Shown here one piece after another: positions 5,988 to 20,873 of a stretch of 38,041 bases of DNA (position 1 is the stretch's first letter; each line of letters starts with the position of its first letter). Below the pieces are notes generated by a model, which saw only the letters and a program-made list of their open reading frames with translations, searched no databases and was not told the DNA's origin. The translations under genes were made by a program, and so were the position numbers. Origin of the DNA: Deltaproteobacteria bacterium. GTDB lineage: Bacteria; Myxococcota_A; UBA796; JAFGLY01. Location: contig JAFGLY010000216.1 of NCBI GenBank assembly GCA_016927815.1, positions 1 to 38,041 on the forward strand, written 5' to 3'.

Positions 5988-8693
5988 TCAGTGCGCCTGG
6001 GCCCCCACGGCCACCCGGGTCCAGGGCACCACCTCCACCGGCCCGAGGGTCTCGAGCGGTTTCGCGAGTTCTGCGCCGGCCACGACGGCCACCAGGTGTC
6101 GCCTGGCGGTGAGGCGCTCGGCCAGCGCCCGGTTCACCTCGGCGCGGTCGAGGCGCCGGAGGCGTTCGACGTCCGCGAGCACGTCGAATCCCGTCAGGGC
6201 CCGATCCACGGCCAGCCCCACGCGGCGGCTCACGGTCTCCTGGAGAAACGGCGCACCCCGGACCAGGATGGCGCGCGCCTGGTCGCACTCGGCCTCGGTG
6301 ACCCCGTCGCGACGGGCAGCCTCCACCAGGTCGAGGACGAGCCGGATCGCGTCCAGCGCCTGGTGCGTGTCGGGCGAGATCCACCACCGCCAGGCCCCAC
6401 CCGCACGGCGGGGGCTGTCCCAGGCGTAGGCTCCGTAGGACCACCCCCGCGCTTCTCGGACCTCCTTCATCAGGCGCCCCGAGAAGGAGCCGCCTCCCAG
6501 GACCTCGGTGCCCAGTCTCAAGGCCAGGCGCCAGGGATCCCCCCACGCGCTCCCGGGCAGGCCGCCCATGACCTGGGCTTGCGTGCGATCGGGCTTGTCC
6601 ACGAGGACCAGTCGGATCCCGGGCGACAGCGCGACAACCGACACGAGGGGCTTCCGCGCGGCCTGCCCCTGGACACCGGCGAGCAGGCGCTCGAGGCGCC
6701 CCTCGATGCCGGCGCCGAACGCGCCCGACACGCCGACCACGGCCCCTTCGGACCTGACGTACTGGGCGTGGAACGCCGCGCAGTCGGCGGGTTCGATGCC
6801 CCGGATGCCGGCCTCGGTCCCCACGGGTCCGGCGGCATAGGGATGGCCGGGGCCGTACAGGGCGTCCTCGAAGGCGATCCCCACGAGGTCGGCGTCGTCC
6901 TCGCGGATCGCCCGGAAGCCGTCGAGGGCCTCGTCCTTCAAGCGTTCGATCTCTTCCTCGCAAAACGCGGGATCCGCGAGCGCTTCGGCCACCAGGTCGC
7001 AGAACGCCGGAAAGGCCCCGGAGGGGCAGGATCCGTCGAACGCGAGGGTGTCGCGGTCCACGCTCACGCCCAGGCGGGCACCCAGGCTTTCGAGGGCCTC
7101 CTCGAACGCCTCGCGCGGTCGACCTCGGGTCCCCTTGAGGACGGCGTGGGTCGCGAAGGCCGCGAGCCCCGACCGCTCGGGCGGATCCGAGGCGCTCCCC
7201 ACGGGGAAGGCCAGCCTCAGGTGCACGACGGGCAGGGCGTCGTCCCAGCCCAGCACGGCCGTGGCCCCTCCCAGGGGCTTCAGGACCACCTCGCCGCGTC
7301 CCAGACCGGGGCGTCGCACGCGTCGGTCGGACACGGGGGCGATCCCCGAGGGGCGAGGCACCCGGCGGAGCTTCGGGCTGACGGCTTCCCCGTCCGGTGC
7401 CCGGCCCCCGACCGCGGATCGGCGAGCCGGTACGCAGTACCGGCCACAGACCCGGGCCACGTCGTCCACTCCGACACGTGCGACGGCTGCCAGGGCGTCG
7501 AGGCCGTGGGCCCAGCTCCCGGCCACCACCTGGTAGAGCCCGAGAAAGTCGGCCTTTCCAAAGGCACTCTCCAGGGGGGGCCAGGTGCGGGCCTGGACCT
7601 GGCGAACGGCTCGGGCCACCTCGCCGGAGGTGACCTCGCCCGCGGCGATGCGAGACAACTCGTCCTCCACGGCCTCCAGGAGGATCTCGGCCGAGACCCC
7701 CGGTCGCGCCGAGGCGTCGAGCTCCATCAAGGCCTCCTCCCGAAAGGGGGGCAGGCCCGTGGAGACGCTTCCCGCGAGGCCCCCGTCCACGAGACGACGT
7801 CCGAGACGGCCACAGCGTCCTGCGGTCAGCAAGGCGTCGAGCACCTGGAGCGCGGGGACGTCGGGATGATCCATGCCGGGTGTCCGCCACCCAACGAGAA
7901 GGCGATCCGTGGTGACCGGCAGATCGATCACCTCGAAGCGGGGCGCCTCCTGGACCGGCTCGGGGGGCAGCGCGGGGAGGACCGCCCCCGAAGGCTCGTG
8001 GTCGCCGAACCATCGCTCGAGGAGATCGCGAGCGGCGTCCAGCCCGAGGTCGCCCACGAGGACCACCACGGCCTGGTCGGGCGCGTACCAACGGTCGTAG
8101 AAGGCCCTGCAGTCCTCGACGGTGAGCGCGGCCACGTCCGCGGCGTGCCCGATGGTGGGCCGGCCGTACGGATGGACGCGGAACGCCAGCGCGTGCAGGC
8201 GCTCGGACAGGAGCCCATCCGGGTCGTTGTCCACGCGGAGGCTGCGCTCGTTGAGCACCACCTCCCGCTCGCGGCGGAAGGGCTCCTCCTCCACCAGCAG
8301 GCGCCGCATCCGGCTGGCTTCGAGCCGGGCCACGGTCTCCACCTCGCTGGCCGGCACGGCCACGGTGTACACGGTCTCGTCCAACCACGTCCAGGCGTTG
8401 AGGCCTCGCGCGCCCAGACCCTCGAGGATCTCCGAGTAGCGCCCATCCGGGTAGTCTCGGGTGGCCTTGAACATCATGTGCTCGAACAGGTGGGCGAGCC
8501 CGGTGCGCCCGGGTTCCTCGAGGGCGCTGCCCACCCGGTACCAGGTCTGCCACGCCACCACGGGCGCCTGGGGATCCTCCACCACCAGGGCCGCGAGGCC
8601 GTTGGCCAGGTGAAAGGACCGGACCTCGAGGGTGCCGGTGAACCGGCGGCGTGCACCGCGACGAACCGAAGGGGACACGGGGTGCGGATCCAT
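5988..8693 (-). CDS. M16 family zinc metallopeptidase, single chain (two M16 halves)
   Basis: This 901-residue peptidase carries the inverted zinc motif HLFEH (His68, Glu71, His72) and the distal ligand in EVVLNE (Glu149). The C-terminal half, from about residue 470, is a second M16 homology unit without that motif and with a GGSFSGRLMKEVREARGWSYGAY-type signature. This is the usual active/inactive clam-shell in one chain. I chose ATG 8693 because GGGAGG lies just upstream; the open frame extends further but looks like noise. The N-terminus is arginine-rich (RRGARRRF) with no obvious signal peptide, so it may be cytoplasmic. It ends 74 bases before the coiled-coil ATPase gene and could be first in that operon. 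Confidence 0.92.
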   Translation of the reverse strand: MDPHPVSPSVRRGARRRFTGTLEVRSFHLANGLAALVVEDPQAPVVAWQTWYRVGSALEEPGRTGLAHLFEHMMFKATRDYPDGRYSEILEGLGARGLNAWTWLDETVYTVAVPASEVETVARLEASRMRRLLVEEEPFRREREVVLNERSLRVDNDPDGLLSERLHALAFRVHPYGRPTIGHAADVAALTVEDCRAFYDRWYAPDQAVVVLVGDLGLDAARDLLERWFGDHEPSGAVLPALPPEPVQEAPRFEVIDLPVTTDRLLVGWRTPGMDHPDVPALQVLDALLTAGRCGRLGRRLVDGGLAGSVSTGLPPFREEALMELDASARPGVSAEILLEAVEDELSRIAAGEVTSGEVARAVRQVQARTWPPLESAFGKADFLGLYQVVAGSWAHGLDALAAVARVGVDDVARVCGRYCVPARRSAVGGRAPDGEAVSPKLRRVPRPSGIAPVSDRRVRRPGLGRGEVVLKPLGGATAVLGWDDALPVVHLRLAFPVGSASDPPERSGLAAFATHAVLKGTRGRPREAFEEALESLGARLGVSVDRDTLAFDGSCPSGAFPAFCDLVAEALADPAFCEEEIERLKDEALDGFRAIREDDADLVGIAFEDALYGPGHPYAAGPVGTEAGIRGIEPADCAAFHAQYVRSEGAVVGVSGAFGAGIEGRLERLLAGVQGQAARKPLVSVVALSPGIRLVLVDKPDRTQAQVMGGLPGSAWGDPWRLALRLGTEVLGGGSFSGRLMKEVREARGWSYGAYAWDSPRRAGGAWRWWISPDTHQALDAIRLVLDLVEAARRDGVTEAECDQARAILVRGAPFLQETVSRRVGLAVDRALTGFDVLADVERLRRLDRAEVNRALAERLTARRHLVAVVAGAELAKPLETLGPVEVVPWTRVAVGAQAH

Positions 8694-8804
8694 CGAGGCC
8701 TCCCAGCCGGGGCCGCGGCGCCCGCGCCAGGGCGGCACGCGAGCCCAGCGTCCCAGCGCCCTAACACCCGCCGGCCGGACAGGTGCGGTACCATGGCCCT
8801 GCCC

Positions 8805-8820
8805 CACCTCCCTGGAGGTG
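8805..8820 (+). promoter_or_regulatory. Hairpin containing the ribosome binding site of the peptidase gene
   Basis: CACCTC (8805-8810) pairs perfectly with GAGGTG (8815-8820) around a four-base loop. The second arm is part of the Shine-Dalgarno sequence that serves GTG 8824. In mRNA this would hide the ribosome binding site, suggesting translational control. No other signal such as a U-run or leader ORF was seen. Confidence 0.45.
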
Positions 8821-8823
8821 CCC

Positions 8824-10488
8824 GTGACCCTGATGCCCCTCGCGACCCTGGTACTGCTCGCCGGATGCCCCTCCGGCGATCCCCTTCACAACGCCGACGC
8901 CCGCTACGTCGAGATCCTGGCCCGCTATCACACCGCAGACCGGGATCTCGCCCGCAACGTCCGCAACCGGGATGCCCGCCGCCGCATGAAGGACGCGGAG
9001 GCGGACCTGGTGGCGTTCTTCCAGGATCCGGATCTGACCGCAGCGGTGACCGAGGCACGGCAGGCCACGGAGGGCTCGTCGCTCCGTGTCCGCGGGGACG
9101 CCTGGTGGCGCGAGATCGTGTTCCGGCGCTCCTGGACCCCGGAGGAGAAGGAGCGGGAGAGCGACCTCCTCGCCCGCGTGGATGCGCAGGCCGCGGTGGA
9201 GGCGACCTGGAGCCCGCCCAACTCCAGCCGACGGGTCCCGTTGGCCGGCTACTGGGAGGAGGTGTCCGAGGCCGCCGACGACCTCCCGGCCCCGGTTCGG
9301 GCCGACCTCGCCGCCACGTTCCTGGACGCCCACATGGCGCTGGTGGGCGAGGATCTACAGGAGCTCGTCCGTCTGCGGAACCGGATCGCCCGGCGGGAGC
9401 ATTACCCTTCTTACTGGGAGTTCGCGCTCTACCACGAGGGTCTCGAACCGCGAGACGTGGACACCCTCCTCTCGGAGCTCAAGCCCGTGGTGTGCCCCGT
9501 GAACGAGGCCACCGAGGCCATCGAGGCCACGGAGGCCACTCGGCTGGGTCTGCCGCACGACTGGGTCCATTCCCCCTTCCTGCGACGCTCGTCCGGCCTC
9601 CAATCCGGACGTGAGGAGGCCGAGGCCTGGTTCGACGCCGACCACGCCGAAGACCGAATCCTCACGAGCCTGCGGGAGATGGGCATCGACCTTGCGGGCT
9701 GGCAGGTCTACATCGAGCCCGCGCGCTATGCGCGCAAGGGCGCCTACTCCTTTCCCATCCGACCTCCCGAACGCATCGCCTTCGTGATGGCCGCCGATCG
9801 CCGGTACGACCTCTGGCAGTACGAGGCGCTCGTCCACGAGGCCGCGCACGCCTTCCGCTGGCGCACACTGGTGCCGGAGGCACTGGCCAGCCCGGTGCTC
9901 TGGGATCCCCCCAACGCCTACTCGGAGGGCTTTGCCCAGATCTTCGACCGGATCCTGCTCTCCCCCGCATGGGTCGCCCGGTACATCCCCGATCTTCCCG
10001 CCGACGTGCGCGACGCCCTCGCGACGTGGCGCTTTCGCTCCATGGCCCGCGACATCACCGAAGCCATCGTGGACACCCTGGTGGAGCGAAGGGTCTACGC
10101 CGATCCCGACGACCTGGATGCCCTGGTGCGGGCCTGCCAGGAGATCGGGGCCGAGTGGCATTTCGGGTCGCCCGGAGCGACCCGCACGGGCGCGCCCTGG
10201 TGCGAAGCCCTGGCCACCCCTCTCATCTGGCACTACCCCGCCTACGTCCAGAACTTCGTGTTCTCGTACGTCACCGAGGCCCAGCTCTACGAGGCCCTCG
10301 TCACGGCGGTAGGCGAACCGGTGGGCAACCCGAGCACGGGACCCTGGCTGAAGGCGCTCGTCAAGGACGGTGGTACGACGCCCCTCGCGGATCGCATCGC
10401 CGAAGTCGCTCCGGATCCCGACCGGACGGCGGCTCTCCGGCGTTACCTCCAGGTACCCGAGGCGACCCCTCCCCGGAGCAGGCTGTAG
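8824..10488 (+). CDS. HEXXH zinc metallopeptidase lipoprotein (M2/M3-like)
   Basis: The 554-residue product begins at GTG 8824, preceded by GGAGGTG; an ATG at 8833 is in frame. The N-terminus MPLATLVLLAGC is a lipoprotein signal with a LAGC lipobox, so the enzyme is likely membrane-anchored outside the cytoplasm. The zinc site is HEAAH (His338, Glu339, His342), with a third ligand probably Glu368 in YSEGFAQ. The helical region LRNRIARREHYPSYWEFAL resembles the body of M2 (peptidyl-dipeptidase A) and M3 (oligopeptidase) gluzincins. Residues 227-239 contain an EATEAIEATEAT run encoded by 9-base imperfect repeats. The TAG stop lies inside the left inverted repeat of the adjacent four-helix-bundle cassette. 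Confidence 0.85.
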   Translation: MTLMPLATLVLLAGCPSGDPLHNADARYVEILARYHTADRDLARNVRNRDARRRMKDAEADLVAFFQDPDLTAAVTEARQATEGSSLRVRGDAWWREIVFRRSWTPEEKERESDLLARVDAQAAVEATWSPPNSSRRVPLAGYWEEVSEAADDLPAPVRADLAATFLDAHMALVGEDLQELVRLRNRIARREHYPSYWEFALYHEGLEPRDVDTLLSELKPVVCPVNEATEAIEATEATRLGLPHDWVHSPFLRRSSGLQSGREEAEAWFDADHAEDRILTSLREMGIDLAGWQVYIEPARYARKGAYSFPIRPPERIAFVMAADRRYDLWQYEALVHEAAHAFRWRTLVPEALASPVLWDPPNAYSEGFAQIFDRILLSPAWVARYIPDLPADVRDALATWRFRSMARDITEAIVDTLVERRVYADPDDLDALVRACQEIGAEWHFGSPGATRTGAPWCEALATPLIWHYPAYVQNFVFSYVTEAQLYEALVTAVGEPVGNPSTGPWLKALVKDGGTTPLADRIAEVAPDPDRTAALRRYLQVPEATPPRSRL

Positions 10489-10780
10489 ACCGTAGGCTGT
10501 AGGTTCGAGGGAGAAGGAGCCGCACCTTCCGCAGGGTACGCAGGATGCCGGCGAGGACCTCCCCCGCCTCGATGCGCCCAGCCGAGGCGAAGGCGACGTC
10601 GAGGAAGTGCAGGTCTTCGGCTCCGGAGCTGCGGGCGCCCCCTTCGACGAGGTTCGAGGGGGTCGACACCGCCCCGCGTCGGAGCTGGGCGGTCAGGCCG
10701 AACCTCTCGTGGCGGGGGAAGCGGCGCGTGTGCTCGTACCCCGCGAGGGCCAAGCGGTCTGCCCGTTCAAAGGCTCGCAA
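10361..10780 (-). CDS. Four-helix-bundle protein (23S rRNA IVP type), internally shortened, possibly decaying
   Basis: Residues 11-60 carry the family signature: FPRHERFGLTAQLRRGAVS, then TPSNLVEGGAR and a FLDVAFASAG segment. Similar proteins are encoded in 23S rRNA intervening sequences, and relatives act as Avd accessory proteins in diversity-generating retroelements; neither context is seen here. After FASAGRIE the sequence jumps to GEVLAGILRTLRKV, apparently lacking roughly 20-25 residues of the usual third helix and loop. The start is TTG 10780 with no good ribosome binding site, although the preceding in-frame codons (AYTK) also fit the family and lack a start codon. The last ~50 residues run through an inverted repeat and antisense into the peptidase gene, so the original end was probably near 10510. 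Confidence 0.55.
   Translation of the reverse strand: MRAFERADRLALAGYEHTRRFPRHERFGLTAQLRRGAVSTPSNLVEGGARSSGAEDLHFLDVAFASAGRIEAGEVLAGILRTLRKVRLLLPRTYSLRSTACSGEGSPRVPGGNAGEPPSGRDPERLRRCDPRGASYHRP
10480..10503 (+). repeat. Left inverted-repeat element flanking the four-helix-bundle gene
   Basis: AGGCTGTAG occurs twice in direct orientation (10480-10488 and 10494-10502). The second copy continues as AGGCTGTAGG, which is the exact reverse complement of CCTACAGCCT at 10831-10840. The first copy contains the TAG stop codon of the peptidase gene. Confidence 0.7.
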
Positions 10781-10852: not shown

Positions 10853-11230
10853 CTATTCCATGCGGAGCAGGTGGCGAACCTTGCTGAGGAGTTCGGAGGC
10901 CTCGATGGGCTTGTCCACGAGGTCGCTGACCGGAAGGCTGCTGATGTCGAAGACCTTTGCGGAGGCATCCGCAATGGCGGAGAGCATCAGGATGGGGACG
11001 TCCGGGAGGAGCCCGTGGAGTCTGCGGGCGAGGTGGAACCCCGAGTCCACCTCCTCCATCATGACGTCCACGACGATCAGGTCCGGCTCCTCCTTCTGGG
11101 CGACCTCCCAGCCGTCGCTGGCGGAGTAGGCGGACACCACGCGGAAGCCGGCGTGGGTCAGCACCGTCTCGCAGAACAGGATGATGTTGGGGTCGTCGTC
11201 GATCACGAGGATGGTACGTTCAGGGTCCAT
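10853..11230 (-). CDS. Receiver-only response regulator (CheY-like)
   Basis: This 125-residue single-domain receiver protein has the acidic pair in VIDDDPNI (Asp11-Asp13), phospho-acceptor Asp55 in IVVDVMM, Ser84 in the switch position (LMLSA) and Lys107 in DKP. All key residues are present and there is no output domain, so it probably acts by protein contact or in a phosphorelay. ATG 11230 has GGGAGA five bases upstream; longer readings overlap the divergent kinase gene and look like noise. It is divergent from the kinase-flavoprotein fusion with 163 bases between starts, making it the natural candidate partner for that kinase; the pairing is inferred. Confidence 0.92.
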   Translation of the reverse strand: MDPERTILVIDDDPNIILFCETVLTHAGFRVVSAYSASDGWEVAQKEEPDLIVVDVMMEEVDSGFHLARRLHGLLPDVPILMLSAIADASAKVFDISSLPVSDLVDKPIEASELLSKVRHLLRME

Positions 11231-11357
11231 GAGGTCTCCCGCGTCGGGTGCAGGAGTCCTATCCCGGCCCCGGGGGGCCTTGTCGAGGCGATCCGGCTGC
11301 GCCATGCGCTCGGCCAGCAGGAATGGGCTTCCCCTCCGCACCCTCGTTAGATACCTC

Positions 11358-11374
11358 CAGTCCTTCCCGGACTG
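11358..11374. promoter_or_regulatory. Inverted repeat in the divergent region before the kinase fusion
   Basis: CAGTCC (11358-11363) and GGACTG (11369-11374) are perfect arms around five bases, ending 19 bases before the ATG at 11394. This could be an operator or a 5'-leader hairpin. The length is short, so chance is possible. Confidence 0.25.
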
Positions 11375-11393
11375 CCGCCCCTCGCGAAGCGCC

Positions 11394-13958
11394 ATGCCCG
11401 ACCGGAAAGCACCGAAACATCCCTCCACAAGTGGCTTTCTCGGAGTGCCGCCTCGCGAGGGAGATTCCGAGGACCGTAGCGTCGGGGATCAACGATCCGA
11501 GTTGATGCGGCTGGCCGTCATCGTGGCCCACCAGCTCAAGTCGCCCATGGCGTCGGTCCAGTCCATCCACAACCTCCTGCTCGGGGGCTTCGTGGGGCCC
11601 GTCACCCCCAAGCAGAAGGATCTCCTCGAGCGGGCCAACGCGTCTTGCGCCCGGGGCGCTCTGTTGATCGCCGACCTGTTGAGGTTGCGAACCCTCGACG
11701 GGTTCTCGCAGGACGACCTCGTCCCGTACAACCTGGCCTCTGTCCTCCGAAACGTCCTGGACCGCGTCCGGCCGCTGGCCGAGGCCCGCAAGATCCACCT
11801 CGTGGACCGGGTGACGCTGGACGATCCCGAGCTGTGCTGGGTCCTCGCGGACCCAGCCACCATCGGTGAGATCTTCTACGTCGTCCTCGAGAACGCGGTC
11901 AAGTACACGCCCCCCGACGGGCGCGTGGACGCGGAGCTCCGGTCCGAGGAGACCCCGGCTCCCGAAGGAGGAACGCAGCTTCAGTACGTCGTCGAGGTCG
12001 TGGACACGGGCATCGGCATCCCCAGCGAGGCCCTCCCCCACCTGTTCATGGACTTCTACCGGGCCCCCAACGCCAAGGCCCAGAGCCAGGACGGAACGGG
12101 CCTGGGCCTCGCGTTCGCAGGGCGAGCGGTCGCGCTCCACGGCGGGTCCATCCAGTTGACCCAGGCGGACACGGGCGGCGCACGCGCACTCGTCCGGCTT
12201 CCGGCCGCCCCTCCGTCGTCCCTGGCTCCGCACGAGGTGTCGGTCCGGAGAGGCCTGTCGCGGAGCCGGCACCCCATCTCCCAGCGCGTGGTCGTGGTCG
12301 GTGGCGTGGCGGCGGGCTCCAAGACCGCGGCCAAGGTCATGCGGCTCGACCCGGACGCCGAGGTCACCGTGCTCGAGCGCGGACGGTTCCTCTCCTACGC
12401 CGGCTGCGGACTCCCCTACTACGTCTCGGGGACCGTGCGGGATCAGGCGGCCCTGCTCTCCAGCCCCCTGGGCGACGTCCGGGACTCGGCCTTCTTCCAC
12501 AACCTCAAGAACGTCACCACGTTCGACCTGATCGAGGTCACGGCCATCGATCGCGAGCAGAAGGTCGTGAGCGCCAAGAGCCACGTGGACGGCTCCGTGA
12601 TGCAGCTTCGGTACGACAAGCTGGTGCTGGCCACCGGGGCCTCGGCGGTGAAGACCCCGATGCCCGGCGTGGATCTGAAGGGCATCTACACGCTGCACGG
12701 CGTGGAGGACGCCGAGGCCATCCGGTCCGAGCTCCGCACGTCCTCCGCGAAGGAGGTGCTGATCGTGGGCGGCGGCCTGCTCGGGTGCGAGATCACCGAA
12801 TCCGTGGCCATGCGGGGGTCTCGCATCACGCTCTTGGAACGCGAGAGCCACATCCTGCGCATCGTGGATCCCGAGATCGCCCTCCTGGTGGAATGCCACA
12901 TGCGATCCCACGGTGTCCGGGTGATGACCGACGCCGAGGTGGTCGCCTTCGAGGGCGACACCCGGGTCCGCTCGGTCACCTTGAAGAACGGACTGCGCCT
13001 GCCGTGCGACTTCGTCATCCTCGCCATGGGCGTGAAGCCCAACGTGGCTCTCGCGCAACAGGCCGGTCTGGAGATCGGCACCACCGGCGCCGTGAAGGTC
13101 GATCGGTTCCTGCGCACGTCCGACCCCGACATCTACGCGGCCGGCGACTGCGCGGAGGACTTCCACATCATCACGCAGAAGCCGGTCTGGATCCCGCTGG
13201 GTTCCACGGCGGTCAAGCAGGGCCGGGTGGCGGCCATCAACCTGTGCGGAGGCCAGGAGGCGTTCCCGGGCGTGGTGGGGACCATCGTGCTCAAGGTCTT
13301 CGACTACGCCGTCGGATGCGTGGGGCTCACCGAGCAGGATGCTCGACTCGCGGGGTTCGACCCCATCTCGGCGATCATCTCCGGGCCCGACCACGACCAT
13401 TTCCTGCCCAACTCCCGGACCATCGTCCTCAGGATCGTGGCCGACCGGAAGACCCGACGGCTCCTCGGACTCCAGGGGATCGGACCCGGCGACGTGACCA
13501 AGCGCATCGATGTGGCGGCCGTGGCCCTCACCGCCGGGATGGACCTGGAGGCCTTGAGCCAGCTGGATCTCGGGTACGCGCCCCCCTACGCGCTGGCCAT
13601 GGATACGCTGCTCACAGCGGCCAATGTGTTGCGGAACAAGATCGACGGCGCCTACGAGGGCATCTCCAGTCTCGAGCTGCACCGGCAGATCGCCTCGGGC
13701 CACCCTCCCCTCCTGCTCGACGTGCGCCTGCCCGCCGAGTACCGAGTCTCCCGTCTCCCGGACAGCCTGCATGTGCCGCTCGGTTCGCTGCGCGGGCGCC
13801 TGGACGAGATCCCTCGCGATCGGAACATCGTCCTCGTCGAGAAGATCGGCCTGCGCGGGTACGAGGCCTCGCTCATCCTGAGGAAGGCCGGCTTCCAGGG
13901 GGTGACGGTGCTCGATGGCGGCCTGGACGCCTGGCCGTTCGAGGTGGAGCACCTCTAG
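11394..13958 (+). CDS. Fusion: histidine kinase + CoA-disulfide/persulfide reductase-type flavoprotein + rhodanese-like domain
   Basis: The 854-residue chain has three parts. Residues ~38-265 are a soluble histidine kinase: H-box AHQLKSP (His46), N-box ENAVKYTP (Asn167), DTGIGIP and GTGLGL. Residues ~297-750 are an FAD/NAD(P)H disulfide reductase: GGVAAGSKTAA, redox Cys338 in SYAGCGLPYY as in CoA-disulfide reductase, a second nucleotide fold VGGGLLGCE, and DIYAAGDCAE. Residues ~765-854 are rhodanese-like (LLLDVRLPAEY, GLRGYEA), but the catalytic cysteine position is Glu816. Reductase-rhodanese fusions (CoADR-RHD, Npsr) are known; the added kinase is unusual. ATG 11394 is the chosen start, with a weak ribosome binding site; ATG 11505 would still keep the H-box. 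There is no membrane segment. It presumably senses thiol or persulfide redox state. Confidence 0.9.
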   Translation: MPDRKAPKHPSTSGFLGVPPREGDSEDRSVGDQRSELMRLAVIVAHQLKSPMASVQSIHNLLLGGFVGPVTPKQKDLLERANASCARGALLIADLLRLRTLDGFSQDDLVPYNLASVLRNVLDRVRPLAEARKIHLVDRVTLDDPELCWVLADPATIGEIFYVVLENAVKYTPPDGRVDAELRSEETPAPEGGTQLQYVVEVVDTGIGIPSEALPHLFMDFYRAPNAKAQSQDGTGLGLAFAGRAVALHGGSIQLTQADTGGARALVRLPAAPPSSLAPHEVSVRRGLSRSRHPISQRVVVVGGVAAGSKTAAKVMRLDPDAEVTVLERGRFLSYAGCGLPYYVSGTVRDQAALLSSPLGDVRDSAFFHNLKNVTTFDLIEVTAIDREQKVVSAKSHVDGSVMQLRYDKLVLATGASAVKTPMPGVDLKGIYTLHGVEDAEAIRSELRTSSAKEVLIVGGGLLGCEITESVAMRGSRITLLERESHILRIVDPEIALLVECHMRSHGVRVMTDAEVVAFEGDTRVRSVTLKNGLRLPCDFVILAMGVKPNVALAQQAGLEIGTTGAVKVDRFLRTSDPDIYAAGDCAEDFHIITQKPVWIPLGSTAVKQGRVAAINLCGGQEAFPGVVGTIVLKVFDYAVGCVGLTEQDARLAGFDPISAIISGPDHDHFLPNSRTIVLRIVADRKTRRLLGLQGIGPGDVTKRIDVAAVALTAGMDLEALSQLDLGYAPPYALAMDTLLTAANVLRNKIDGAYEGISSLELHRQIASGHPPLLLDVRLPAEYRVSRLPDSLHVPLGSLRGRLDEIPRDRNIVLVEKIGLRGYEASLILRKAGFQGVTVLDGGLDAWPFEVEHL

Positions 13959-18865: not shown

Positions 18866-19282
18866 GGAGGCGATCCGGAGCGCCTCGCCTCCTACGAAGC
18901 CATCCTGGCGGCACTCTCGGAGGGCCGAACGGTCCATGTGGTGCTGTACTACCCCGAGTGTAGGCTCCGGGTCGGCGATGCGGTGATGAAACCGCCCGAG
19001 TCGTCGGCGGGGCTCACCTTTGGCGCCTGGGAGGCCTTCGCCCGCGGTGCGGTCGGGAACGACCGGGCCTACCTGACGGTGTCCGAGACCCGCATGGTGG
19101 CCCACGCCCGGCGCGGCCCCGTCTGGAACTACCTGCGCCTGCGGCTCTACGACGACGGCGAGGTGGAGTTGCAGGCCAGGAACATCCTGCCCGCCGACTT
19201 CTCGGTCATCATGGACAACCTCTTCACCTGCGCGATCGACCCGGGCACGGGCAAGGGCGGTGCCTCGTTCTACACGGATTGA
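18824..19282 (+). CDS. VirK-family-like small protein
   Basis: The 152-residue product starts at ATG 18824 with GGAG upstream. The body follows the VirK pattern: LASYEAILAALSEGRTVHVVLYY at about residues 20-42, a cysteine in YYPECRL, a Gly-Leu-Thr-Phe segment (SAGLTFGAWEAF), SETRMVAH, NYLRLRLYDDGEVEL, and a C-terminal cysteine in NLFTCAID. VirK-type proteins are small, usually exported and poorly characterised; the name comes from an Agrobacterium virulence-region gene. The short hydrophobic start (MHPFPAILLFLGAHGG) may be a weak signal peptide. A truncated copy of its 5' end lies about 350 bases upstream. Confidence 0.72.
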   Translation: MHPFPAILLFLGAHGGDPERLASYEAILAALSEGRTVHVVLYYPECRLRVGDAVMKPPESSAGLTFGAWEAFARGAVGNDRAYLTVSETRMVAHARRGPVWNYLRLRLYDDGEVELQARNILPADFSVIMDNLFTCAIDPGTGKGGASFYTD

Positions 19283-19399
19283 CCCGATCCGCACGCACTC
19301 CTCGCCCAGGCCGCAGCATCTCGACCCGCCATCGCCTCGCGTGCGTGACACCCGAGGCTGCTGGCTCATCCATCCGGTTGGAGATGCCTCGACCGGTTC

Positions 19400-19457
19400 G
19401 CCCGCACGCCCCGGCCCCGGACCGCCGCCCTCCCGTTCCCGGCAGGGGCGTGCGGGC
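19400..19457. promoter_or_regulatory. 13-base perfect inverted repeat upstream of the M16 pair
   Basis: GCCCGCACGCCCC (19400-19412) is exactly complementary to GGGGCGTGCGGGC (19445-19457), with 32 bases between. It lies in the 247-base gap between the VirK-type gene and the M16 operon. It could end upstream transcription without a T-run, or structure the 5' leader. The rest of the gap shows no gene. Confidence 0.45.
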
Positions 19458-19529
19458 ACGAACCCCGGTCTTCGGCTCCGCCAGAGCCCGTCCGGTTACG
19501 GTGTCCCTCCCCTGTCGGAGCGACCCCGC

Positions 19530-20873
19530 ATGCCTCTCCTGGCCAGCCTCCTCGCCCTCTCCCTGTCCGCACCGGCTGCCGAGATCCCCGTGCCGGTGCT
19601 CCGAACCGACATCTTCACGCTGTCCAACGGCCTCCAGGTGATCCTGTCCGAGGACCACGACGTGCCGGTGGTGCACGTGGAGGTCTGGTACCACGTGGGG
19701 TCCAAGGACGAGCCGGCCGGACGCACGGGCTTCGCCCACCTCTTCGAGCACCTCATGTTCCAGGGGTCCCGGCAGCACGACCGGGACTACATCCTGTCCC
19801 TGCAGGAGATCGGGGCGGTGGTGAACGGGAGCACCAATACAGACCGGACGAACTACTACGAGCGGGTTCCGGCCGAGGAGCTGCCCCGGGCGCTCTTCGC
19901 CGAGGCCGACCGCATGGGCTGGCTCCTGATCGACGAGGCGCGTCTCGGCAACCAGCGGGACGTGGTCCGCAACGAGCGCCGCCAGAACTACGAGAACCGG
20001 CCCTACGGCGCGGTGCGTCTGGCCTTGCCCGAGCTCTTGTGGCCCGAGGGCCACCCGTACGCCCACCCGGTCATCGGGTCCCACGAGGATCTCGAGGCCG
20101 CCACGCTCTCCGACGTCCGCGACTTCTTCCGCGCCTGGTACACCCCCAACAACGCCACGCTCACGGTCGTCGGCGACTTCGATCCCGCCGAGGCCCGCAC
20201 GCTGGTGGAACGGTTCTTCGGGCCGGTTCCGCGGGGACCGGATCCGCCCTCGCGGGCCGCACCACCGCCGGAGGGCGTCCGGCCCCTGCCGGCCGCCCTC
20301 TCCGGCGCCAAGGAGGTCACGCTCACGCTCCCCGTCCCGGTGCCCAAGGTCTGGATCGCGTACCTCACCCCCGCGCTCTACGCTCCGGGAGACGCCGACC
20401 TCGACCTCCTGGCAGACGTCCTCTCGGACGGGGACGACTCCCGCCTCCACACGGCCCTGGTGCGCGAGAGGAAGGTGGCGCGCGAGGTCCAGGCCATGCA
20501 GTCCTCCTCCCAGTACCAGTCCGTGTTCCTGGTGCAGGCCACGCCGTCCGAGGGGCACACCACGGCCGAGATCGTGGCGGCCGTGGACACGGTGCTGGCC
20601 GACTTGAGCGCCCACCCGCCCACCGAGGAGGAGATCGAGGCCGCCCGAGCGGGGGCCGTGCGGCACATCCTGGAGGGCCTGGGCACGGTGGCCGGCAAGA
20701 GCCGCGCCCTCCAGTCCTACAACCACTTCCTCGGCGAACCCGAAGCGCTCGACCGGGACCTGGAGCGGTACCGCACCGCGACCCTGGCCTCGGTCCGGAA
20801 GGCGCTGCAAACCTGGCTGCCGCCCGATCGCCGCCTCGTGATCCATGTCCAGCCCCAGCAGGTGACGCCATGA
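19530..20873 (+). CDS. Exported M16 zinc metallopeptidase, catalytic subunit
   Basis: The 447-residue product starts at ATG 19530 with a clear Sec signal peptide (MPLLASLLALSLSAPAA, cleavage near residue 17). The zinc motif is HLFEH (His70, Glu73, His74) with distal Glu149 in DVVRNE. The length is that of a one-unit M16B peptidase, which normally works as a heterodimer with an inactive partner. That partner is the next gene, whose ATG overlaps this gene's TGA (ATGA), so subunits are made in equal amounts. It would degrade peptides in the periplasm or at the outer membrane; the substrate is unknown. Confidence 0.95.
   Translation: MPLLASLLALSLSAPAAEIPVPVLRTDIFTLSNGLQVILSEDHDVPVVHVEVWYHVGSKDEPAGRTGFAHLFEHLMFQGSRQHDRDYILSLQEIGAVVNGSTNTDRTNYYERVPAEELPRALFAEADRMGWLLIDEARLGNQRDVVRNERRQNYENRPYGAVRLALPELLWPEGHPYAHPVIGSHEDLEAATLSDVRDFFRAWYTPNNATLTVVGDFDPAEARTLVERFFGPVPRGPDPPSRAAPPPEGVRPLPAALSGAKEVTLTLPVPVPKVWIAYLTPALYAPGDADLDLLADVLSDGDDSRLHTALVRERKVAREVQAMQSSSQYQSVFLVQATPSEGHTTAEIVAAVDTVLADLSAHPPTEEEIEAARAGAVRHILEGLGTVAGKSRALQSYNHFLGEPEALDRDLERYRTATLASVRKALQTWLPPDRRLVIHVQPQQVTP

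Follow-up and report, generated by a model that had tools for sequence, protein, structure and literature searches.

HoxJ/HoxA-HoxBC and HupT/HupR are H2-sensing systems that comprise a regulatory hydrogenase, a PAS kinase, and a DNA-binding regulator. To our knowledge, the known flavin-sensing kinases use PAS domains, and direct reading of the NADH or thiol pool is known for only a few bacterial kinases. NifL and Aer read the redox state of FAD by kinase-like or chemotaxis signaling, with the flavin housed in a PAS domain, according to a 2025 review on flavin redox switches in signaling, in which a keyword search returned no mention of disulfide reductases, rhodanese, or hydrogenase (PMC12540587). 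Among flavoenzymes, the NADH-dependent persulfide reductase (Npsr) from Archaeoglobus fulgidus (AfNpsr) uses NADH specifically, acts on persulfides as well as polysulfides, and oxidizes NADH with O2; its rhodanese Cys519 has been proposed to accept sulfur and pass it via CoA to the flavin-side Cys42, with the loop TTYGAVR closing over CoA (PMC7969121). CoA-disulfide reductase (CoADR; TIGR03385) and the CoADR-RHD from Bacillus anthracis (PDB code, 3ICR) comprise FAD/NAD(P)H domains, a dimerization domain, and an active-site cysteine.

The window, i.e., the whole stretch of 38,041 nucleotides analyzed here, carries at 11394-13958 (+) a single gene that joins a kinase, an Npsr/CoADR-type reductase, and a rhodanese-like domain in one protein of 854 residues, as defined by its reading frame, Pfam matches, and full-length relatives. 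The same architecture was found in seven further genomes, eight in total, representing 3 of 379 sampled genomes of the window's phylum (the window included), 4 of 297 in Acidobacteriota (G379, G429, G606, and G622), and 1 of 44 in PVC (G380).

This locus shares with HoxJ and HupT a two-component signaling system tied to [NiFe] hydrogenase genes, but its kinase is fused to a soluble flavoenzyme, its regulator is a receiver alone, and both are linked to a catalytic Hox operon; the hallmark of the HoxJ/HupT type, a regulatory hydrogenase (HoxBC/HupUV) beside a PAS kinase, was not detected in the fused protein or the window genes scanned, the enzyme linked to the fusion in G001 being of the catalytic HoxEFUYH type. 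With NifL and Aer the protein would share the readout of FAD redox state into signaling, whereas the place of the PAS domain is taken, in the proposed input, by a pyridine nucleotide-disulfide oxidoreductase that has an NADH site and a redox cysteine. The resemblance to AfNpsr comprises the reductase-rhodanese order, the flavin-side cysteine (Cys42 there, Cys338 in the window), and the loop over the CoA pocket; in contrast, AfNpsr has no kinase and displays Cys519 where the window protein has Glu816. CoADR and CoADR-RHD likewise resemble it in the FAD/NAD(P)H domains, the dimerization domain, and the active-site cysteine, but the window protein is fused to a kinase, lacks the rhodanese cysteine, and scores below the TIGR03385 cut-off. 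In the open-access text searched, no earlier account was found of a pyridine nucleotide-disulfide oxidoreductase joined to a histidine kinase; the initial annotation had likewise given no described fusion of a reductase-rhodanese protein to such a kinase.

Architecture of the fused protein

The reading frame contains 854 codons and zero internal stops, and the Pfam domains HisKA, HATPase_c, Pyr_redox_2, Pyr_redox_dim, and Rhodanese follow one another in this order, each above its gathering cut-off. The initial annotation, made from the sequence alone, had proposed a complete soluble kinase, a complete FAD/NAD(P)H reductase with a CoADR-type Cys338, and a rhodanese-like tail in one uninterrupted frame; the frame, the kinase, and the reductase hold in full, and the tail holds as a domain, its catalytic cysteine being missing.

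The kinase half comprises (i) the DHp helices, residues 29-102 (11478-11699 (+)), located by Pfam, alignment, and predicted helices, within which HisKA matches residues 43-102 by a slim margin (27.3 bits against a cut-off of 26.9), and (ii) the HATPase_c domain, residues 153-272 (11850-12209 (+)). The sequence motifs of the class are present, namely the phosphoacceptor His46 in AHQLKSP (11529-11531 (+)), the N box Asn167, and the G1 and G2 boxes DTGIGIP and GTGLGLAF, and these residues, as well as Cys338, are conserved in every fused relative whose sequence covers the positions. By every sequence feature tested, the protein is thus a histidine kinase. No PAS domain is detected by Pfam anywhere in the protein, and no sensory domain is recognized in the approximately 28 residues preceding the DHp helices, which are disordered in the model.

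A linker defined by alignment, residues 273-296 (12210-12281 (+)), connects the kinase to the FAD/NAD(H) domain, which was identified by Pfam (Pyr_redox_2, residues 298-610, 214 bits; 12285-13223 (+)), PDB match, and alignment. This domain contains the active-site Cys338 in YAGCGLPYY (12405-12407 (+)) and the loop SSPLGDVR (12459-12482 (+)), the counterpart of TTYGAVR (60-66) in AfNpsr according to the PDB match, the published structure, and the alignment. The reductase dimerization domain (Pyr_redox_dim, residues 634-737, 53 bits; 13293-13604 (+)) follows, and the rhodanese-like domain, supported by Pfam, PDB match, and alignment, occupies residues 761-847 (13674-13934 (+)). An AlphaFold model of one chain (mean pLDDT 78.9, pTM 0.65), built on an alignment of 12 sequences and for that single chain not certain as to domain packing, places the DHp helices at residues 29-63 and 72-102, with low pLDDT before residue 70, the first 42 residues and linker residues 276-293 at low confidence, and the reductase and rhodanese parts mostly confident.

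The best PDB match of the reductase part is AfNpsr (PDB code, 6PFZ; 477 bits). Cys338 is invariant in the alignment, in all eight fusions and all 23 relatives, and the CoA-covering loop is conserved; where the second strand of the NAD fold ends, the aligned set has an invariant Glu482, generally a residue type that favors NADH over NADPH. The position equivalent to Cys519, occupied in the window by Glu816 (13839-13841 (+)), reads Glu, Gly, Ser, Ser, Ser, Cys, Cys, and Cys across the eight fusions, so that the cysteine is lost in 5/8 fusions versus 1/23 stand-alone homologues (Fisher p 0.002, relatedness ignored), with at least two losses on the tree. Because the rhodanese cysteine is lost in five of the eight and Cys338 is kept in all, the alignment indicates that sulfur loading at the rhodanese is dispensable in the fused form and the flavin-side cysteine is not. 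Judged from its sequence, the protein is not a bona fide Npsr, since the rhodanese cysteine is missing, nor a CoADR equivalog, with a TIGR03385 score of 390.4 bits against a cut-off of 578.8.

The Hox operon and the receiver-only regulator

In G001, the other sampled genome of the window's family, the genes HoxEF, HoxU, HoxY, HoxH, HoxW, fusion, and regulator follow on one strand, with 20 bp from the fusion stop to the regulator start; the fusion sits inside an operon for an NAD-reducing [NiFe] hydrogenase. In the window's genome, the same operon lies on another contig (C188), with a HoxH 73% identical, and Pfam detects no hydrogenase among the window genes scanned. In G133 and in the Acidobacteriota genomes G429, G622, and G606 (in the last across two contigs), the operon ends HoxW-regulator, and the fusion lies elsewhere. 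In all, six of the eight fusion genomes carry a closely related Hox operon (HoxEF-U-Y-H-W) together with a regulator bearing the motif MMEE[VI]D[AS]G. A close HoxH, defined at E ≤ 1e-150, occurs in 20/379 genomes of the window's phylum and 30/297 Acidobacteriota genomes, and in 3/3 and 3/4 of those with the fusion (p 1e-4 and 0.0035 in Fisher tests, 8e-7 when pooled), values that ignore shared ancestry and overstate the evidence, there being about four independent fusion lineages. The top three HoxH matches in Acidobacteriota are those of the three fusion genomes. The fusion occurs without a close Hox in G379, where the neighbors (L071) are a divergent cytochrome c/NrfD/ferredoxin set, and in the PVC genome.

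Directly beside the Hox operon of G001 lies another [NiFe] hydrogenase, accompanied by HdrA-like and HdrC-like genes (L129:5552-13369 (-)). Two Acidobacteriota genomes have, next to the fusion and divergent from it, a small protein-kinase-like gene (L177:7371-8063 (-) and L178:7220-7924 (-)), recognized by eye from the motif NILGRGYQG or NVLGRGYQG and perhaps connected to the fusion functionally. In one of these, TusA/SirA-like, cysteine desulfurase-like, and selenophosphate synthase-like genes, also assigned by eye, lie upstream of the fusion (L178:1789-4882 (+)).

In the window, the response regulator at 10853-11230 (-) is divergent from the fusion across an intergenic stretch of 163 bp (11231-11393); it comprises a receiver alone, of the MMEEVDSG type (Response_reg, 74 bits), with no output domain. 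A receiver is also linked to the fusion in G001 and in the PVC genome. In the relatives compared, the receiver that best matches the window regulator is in most cases the one linked to Hox or to the fusion, as seen in G001, G133, G233, G239, G429, G606, and the PVC genome, and orthologues lie after HoxW in G133, G233, G429, G606, G622, G399, and others. In the two main phyla, receivers linked to Hox or to the fusion have in common the unusual motif MMEE[VI]D[AS]G, from which G437 alone departs (MMEDVDSG); the PVC receiver lacks it. On these comparisons, the regulator is likely the partner of the fused kinase.

Around the window pair, a gene for a 23S rRNA-intervening-sequence (four-helix) protein (10364-10780 (-)) adjoins the response regulator, and a 618-residue reading frame (8632-10485 (+)) contains the metallopeptidase-like motif HEAAH (ALVHEAAHAFRW), with no Pfam match at E 1e-4. 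On either side of the region lies an M16 (insulinase-type) peptidase gene (5991-8807 (-) and 19260-20870 (+)).

Hox operons of this subclade that lack the fusion usually carry a different kinase. A membrane kinase, classed as such by eye from its sequence, lies downstream of the regulator in G547, G487, G404, G539, and G437, and in G233 it is divergent from HoxEF; G399, G465, and G239 show no kinase beside the regulator within the available sequence. Conversely, no such kinase occupies this position in the fusion genomes, with only 0.9 kb available beyond it in G622. The mutual exclusivity of the fusion and an adjacent membrane kinase has a nominal p of 0.03, and the Hox-linked kinases comprise at least two types, none grouping with the fused kinase in the kinase tree. 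Read most simply, these operons would keep the regulator constant and have exchanged its kinase, and hence its input.

A candidate redox input for the Hox-linked regulator

We favor, with moderate confidence, the reading that the fused protein is a soluble kinase for the Hox-linked regulator, which would sense the NADH, flavin, or thiol state through a repurposed Npsr module. A more far-reaching proposal, to which we commit only tentatively, is that a whole Npsr-type flavoenzyme, its sulfur loading abandoned, would serve as the NADH/flavin/thiol input to the two-component control of an NAD-reducing hydrogenase, and would define a new class of redox receptor kinase. In both, the kinase-regulator pairing, the NADH/flavin signal, and the Hox target are those that we infer.

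The predicted input module comprises the entire flavoenzyme, including FAD, the NADH site, the flavin-side Cys338, and probably bound CoA. NADH binding and the reduction state of FAD and Cys338 would alter the reductase dimer, a change that would pass to the dimeric DHp/ATPase part and so to phosphorylation of the receiver-only regulator; since both halves are dimeric in known relatives, a symmetric dimer in which a shift of the reductase moves the DHp bundle is plausible. The regulator would in turn tune Hox hydrogenase expression or activity to the NADH/thiol redox state of the cell, hydrogenase adjustment being its likely role because it belongs to NAD-reducing Hox operons. Any of NADH, O2, persulfide, or CoA might act as the signal. 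The NADH/flavin signal is consistent, by analogy, with the NADH specificity and O2-dependent NADH oxidation of the closest solved relative; counted against the favored reading are the two fusion genomes without this Hox, the location of the window's Hox operon on another contig, the lack of an output domain in the regulator, and the three fusions that keep the rhodanese cysteine. If true, the proposal would connect NADH redox state to phosphorelay signaling directly and testably, and would exemplify clearly how an enzyme becomes a sensor, one tied to a hydrogenase that interconverts H2 and NADH and kept in two phyla, and would suggest how some Myxococcota and Acidobacteriota tune this hydrogenase. 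The protein would then function like a flavin redox sensor kinase, with a different input fold.

The initial annotation had envisaged a one-protein sulfur/redox sensor. Its redox part, control by flavin or thiol state, fits the evidence; its sulfur part, in which sulfane sulfur turnover or persulfidation of Cys338 would set kinase output in response to persulfide, polysulfide, or CoA-disulfide, draws on the persulfide and polysulfide reduction of the nearest characterized relative, on the conserved Cys338 and CoA-covering loop, and on the three fusions with an intact rhodanese cysteine, but we consider it unlikely, given Glu, Gly, or Ser at that position in the window and four other fusions, a linkage that is to Hox, and no sulfur-respiration gene recognized adjoining the window gene or its G001 counterpart.

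Reversing the direction of control, the kinase or its receiver might gate the reductase or NADH oxidase, which would then be the output, as the apparently complete catalytic motifs of the reductase would allow and as would account for a receiver devoid of an output domain; yet ahead of the DHp helices the kinase lacks a separate input domain, and the loss of the rhodanese cysteine suggests relaxed enzymatic duty, which leaves this arrangement improbable. We give similarly little credence to a merely co-localized kinase and reductase that act independently, with a shared anaerobic lifestyle behind the Hox association: the absence of a close Hox from G379 and G380 and the position of the window gene outside the operon would agree with it, but the single-operon layout in G001, the regulator common to Hox operons, and the other kinase beside that regulator where the fusion is absent argue against it.

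Recurrence and origin of the fusion

The architecture is rare but real. Although the window's genome is a draft of 216 contigs, an assembly chimera or a frameshift near the junction, a concern of the initial annotation, has a practically negligible probability and was rejected, because the architecture recurs in the seven other genomes, and homologues at 44-60% identity carry the same uninterrupted kinase-reductase junction in independent assemblies. G001 encodes a full-length fused relative (59% identity), and G133, from a distant family, adds the third fusion of the window's phylum. A scan of GTDB genomes adds one Acidobacteriota and one PVC fusion, and a survey of the Acidobacteriota brings that phylum to four in total, the G622 copy beginning within the kinase at a contig end. 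Among the matches listed from a plasmid collection there are only stand-alone reductases near 37% identity, none covering 80%.

Maximum-likelihood analysis of the reductase-rhodanese part places all seven fusions from the window's phylum and Acidobacteriota in one clade (100/100) adjoining stand-alone reductase-rhodanese proteins, and six kinase sequences of this main clade form one clade in the kinase tree (100/99). Given the matching clades, the trees indicate that the main group derives from a single fusion event, its halves kept together since. The PVC fusion falls outside the seven and groups with stand-alone forms from Bathyarchaeota and Armatimonadota (98/95), possibly representing a second, independent fusion; one origin for all fusions is disfavored, though only marginally (AU p 0.046 for one clade). 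The stand-alone sequence L184 was left out of the second reductase tree. Direct descent of the fused kinase from the Hox-linked membrane kinases is unsupported, the two not grouping in the kinase tree.

The initial annotation had also allowed for homologues that are always two separate genes; instead, relatives are either fused or stand-alone reductases, and the close stand-alone forms from Acidobacteriota, Verrucomicrobia, Atribacterota, Armatimonadota, and PVC have no adjacent kinase. Immediately upstream of the PVC fusion lie the receiver and another kinase gene, which looks PAS-like by eye (L078:5304-6871 (+) for the pair), and on this arrangement two kinases may share one receiver. In G125 (L068:1091-3032 (+)), a stand-alone Npsr displays Asp aligned at the rhodanese cysteine, and a separate rhodanese-like gene follows immediately downstream.
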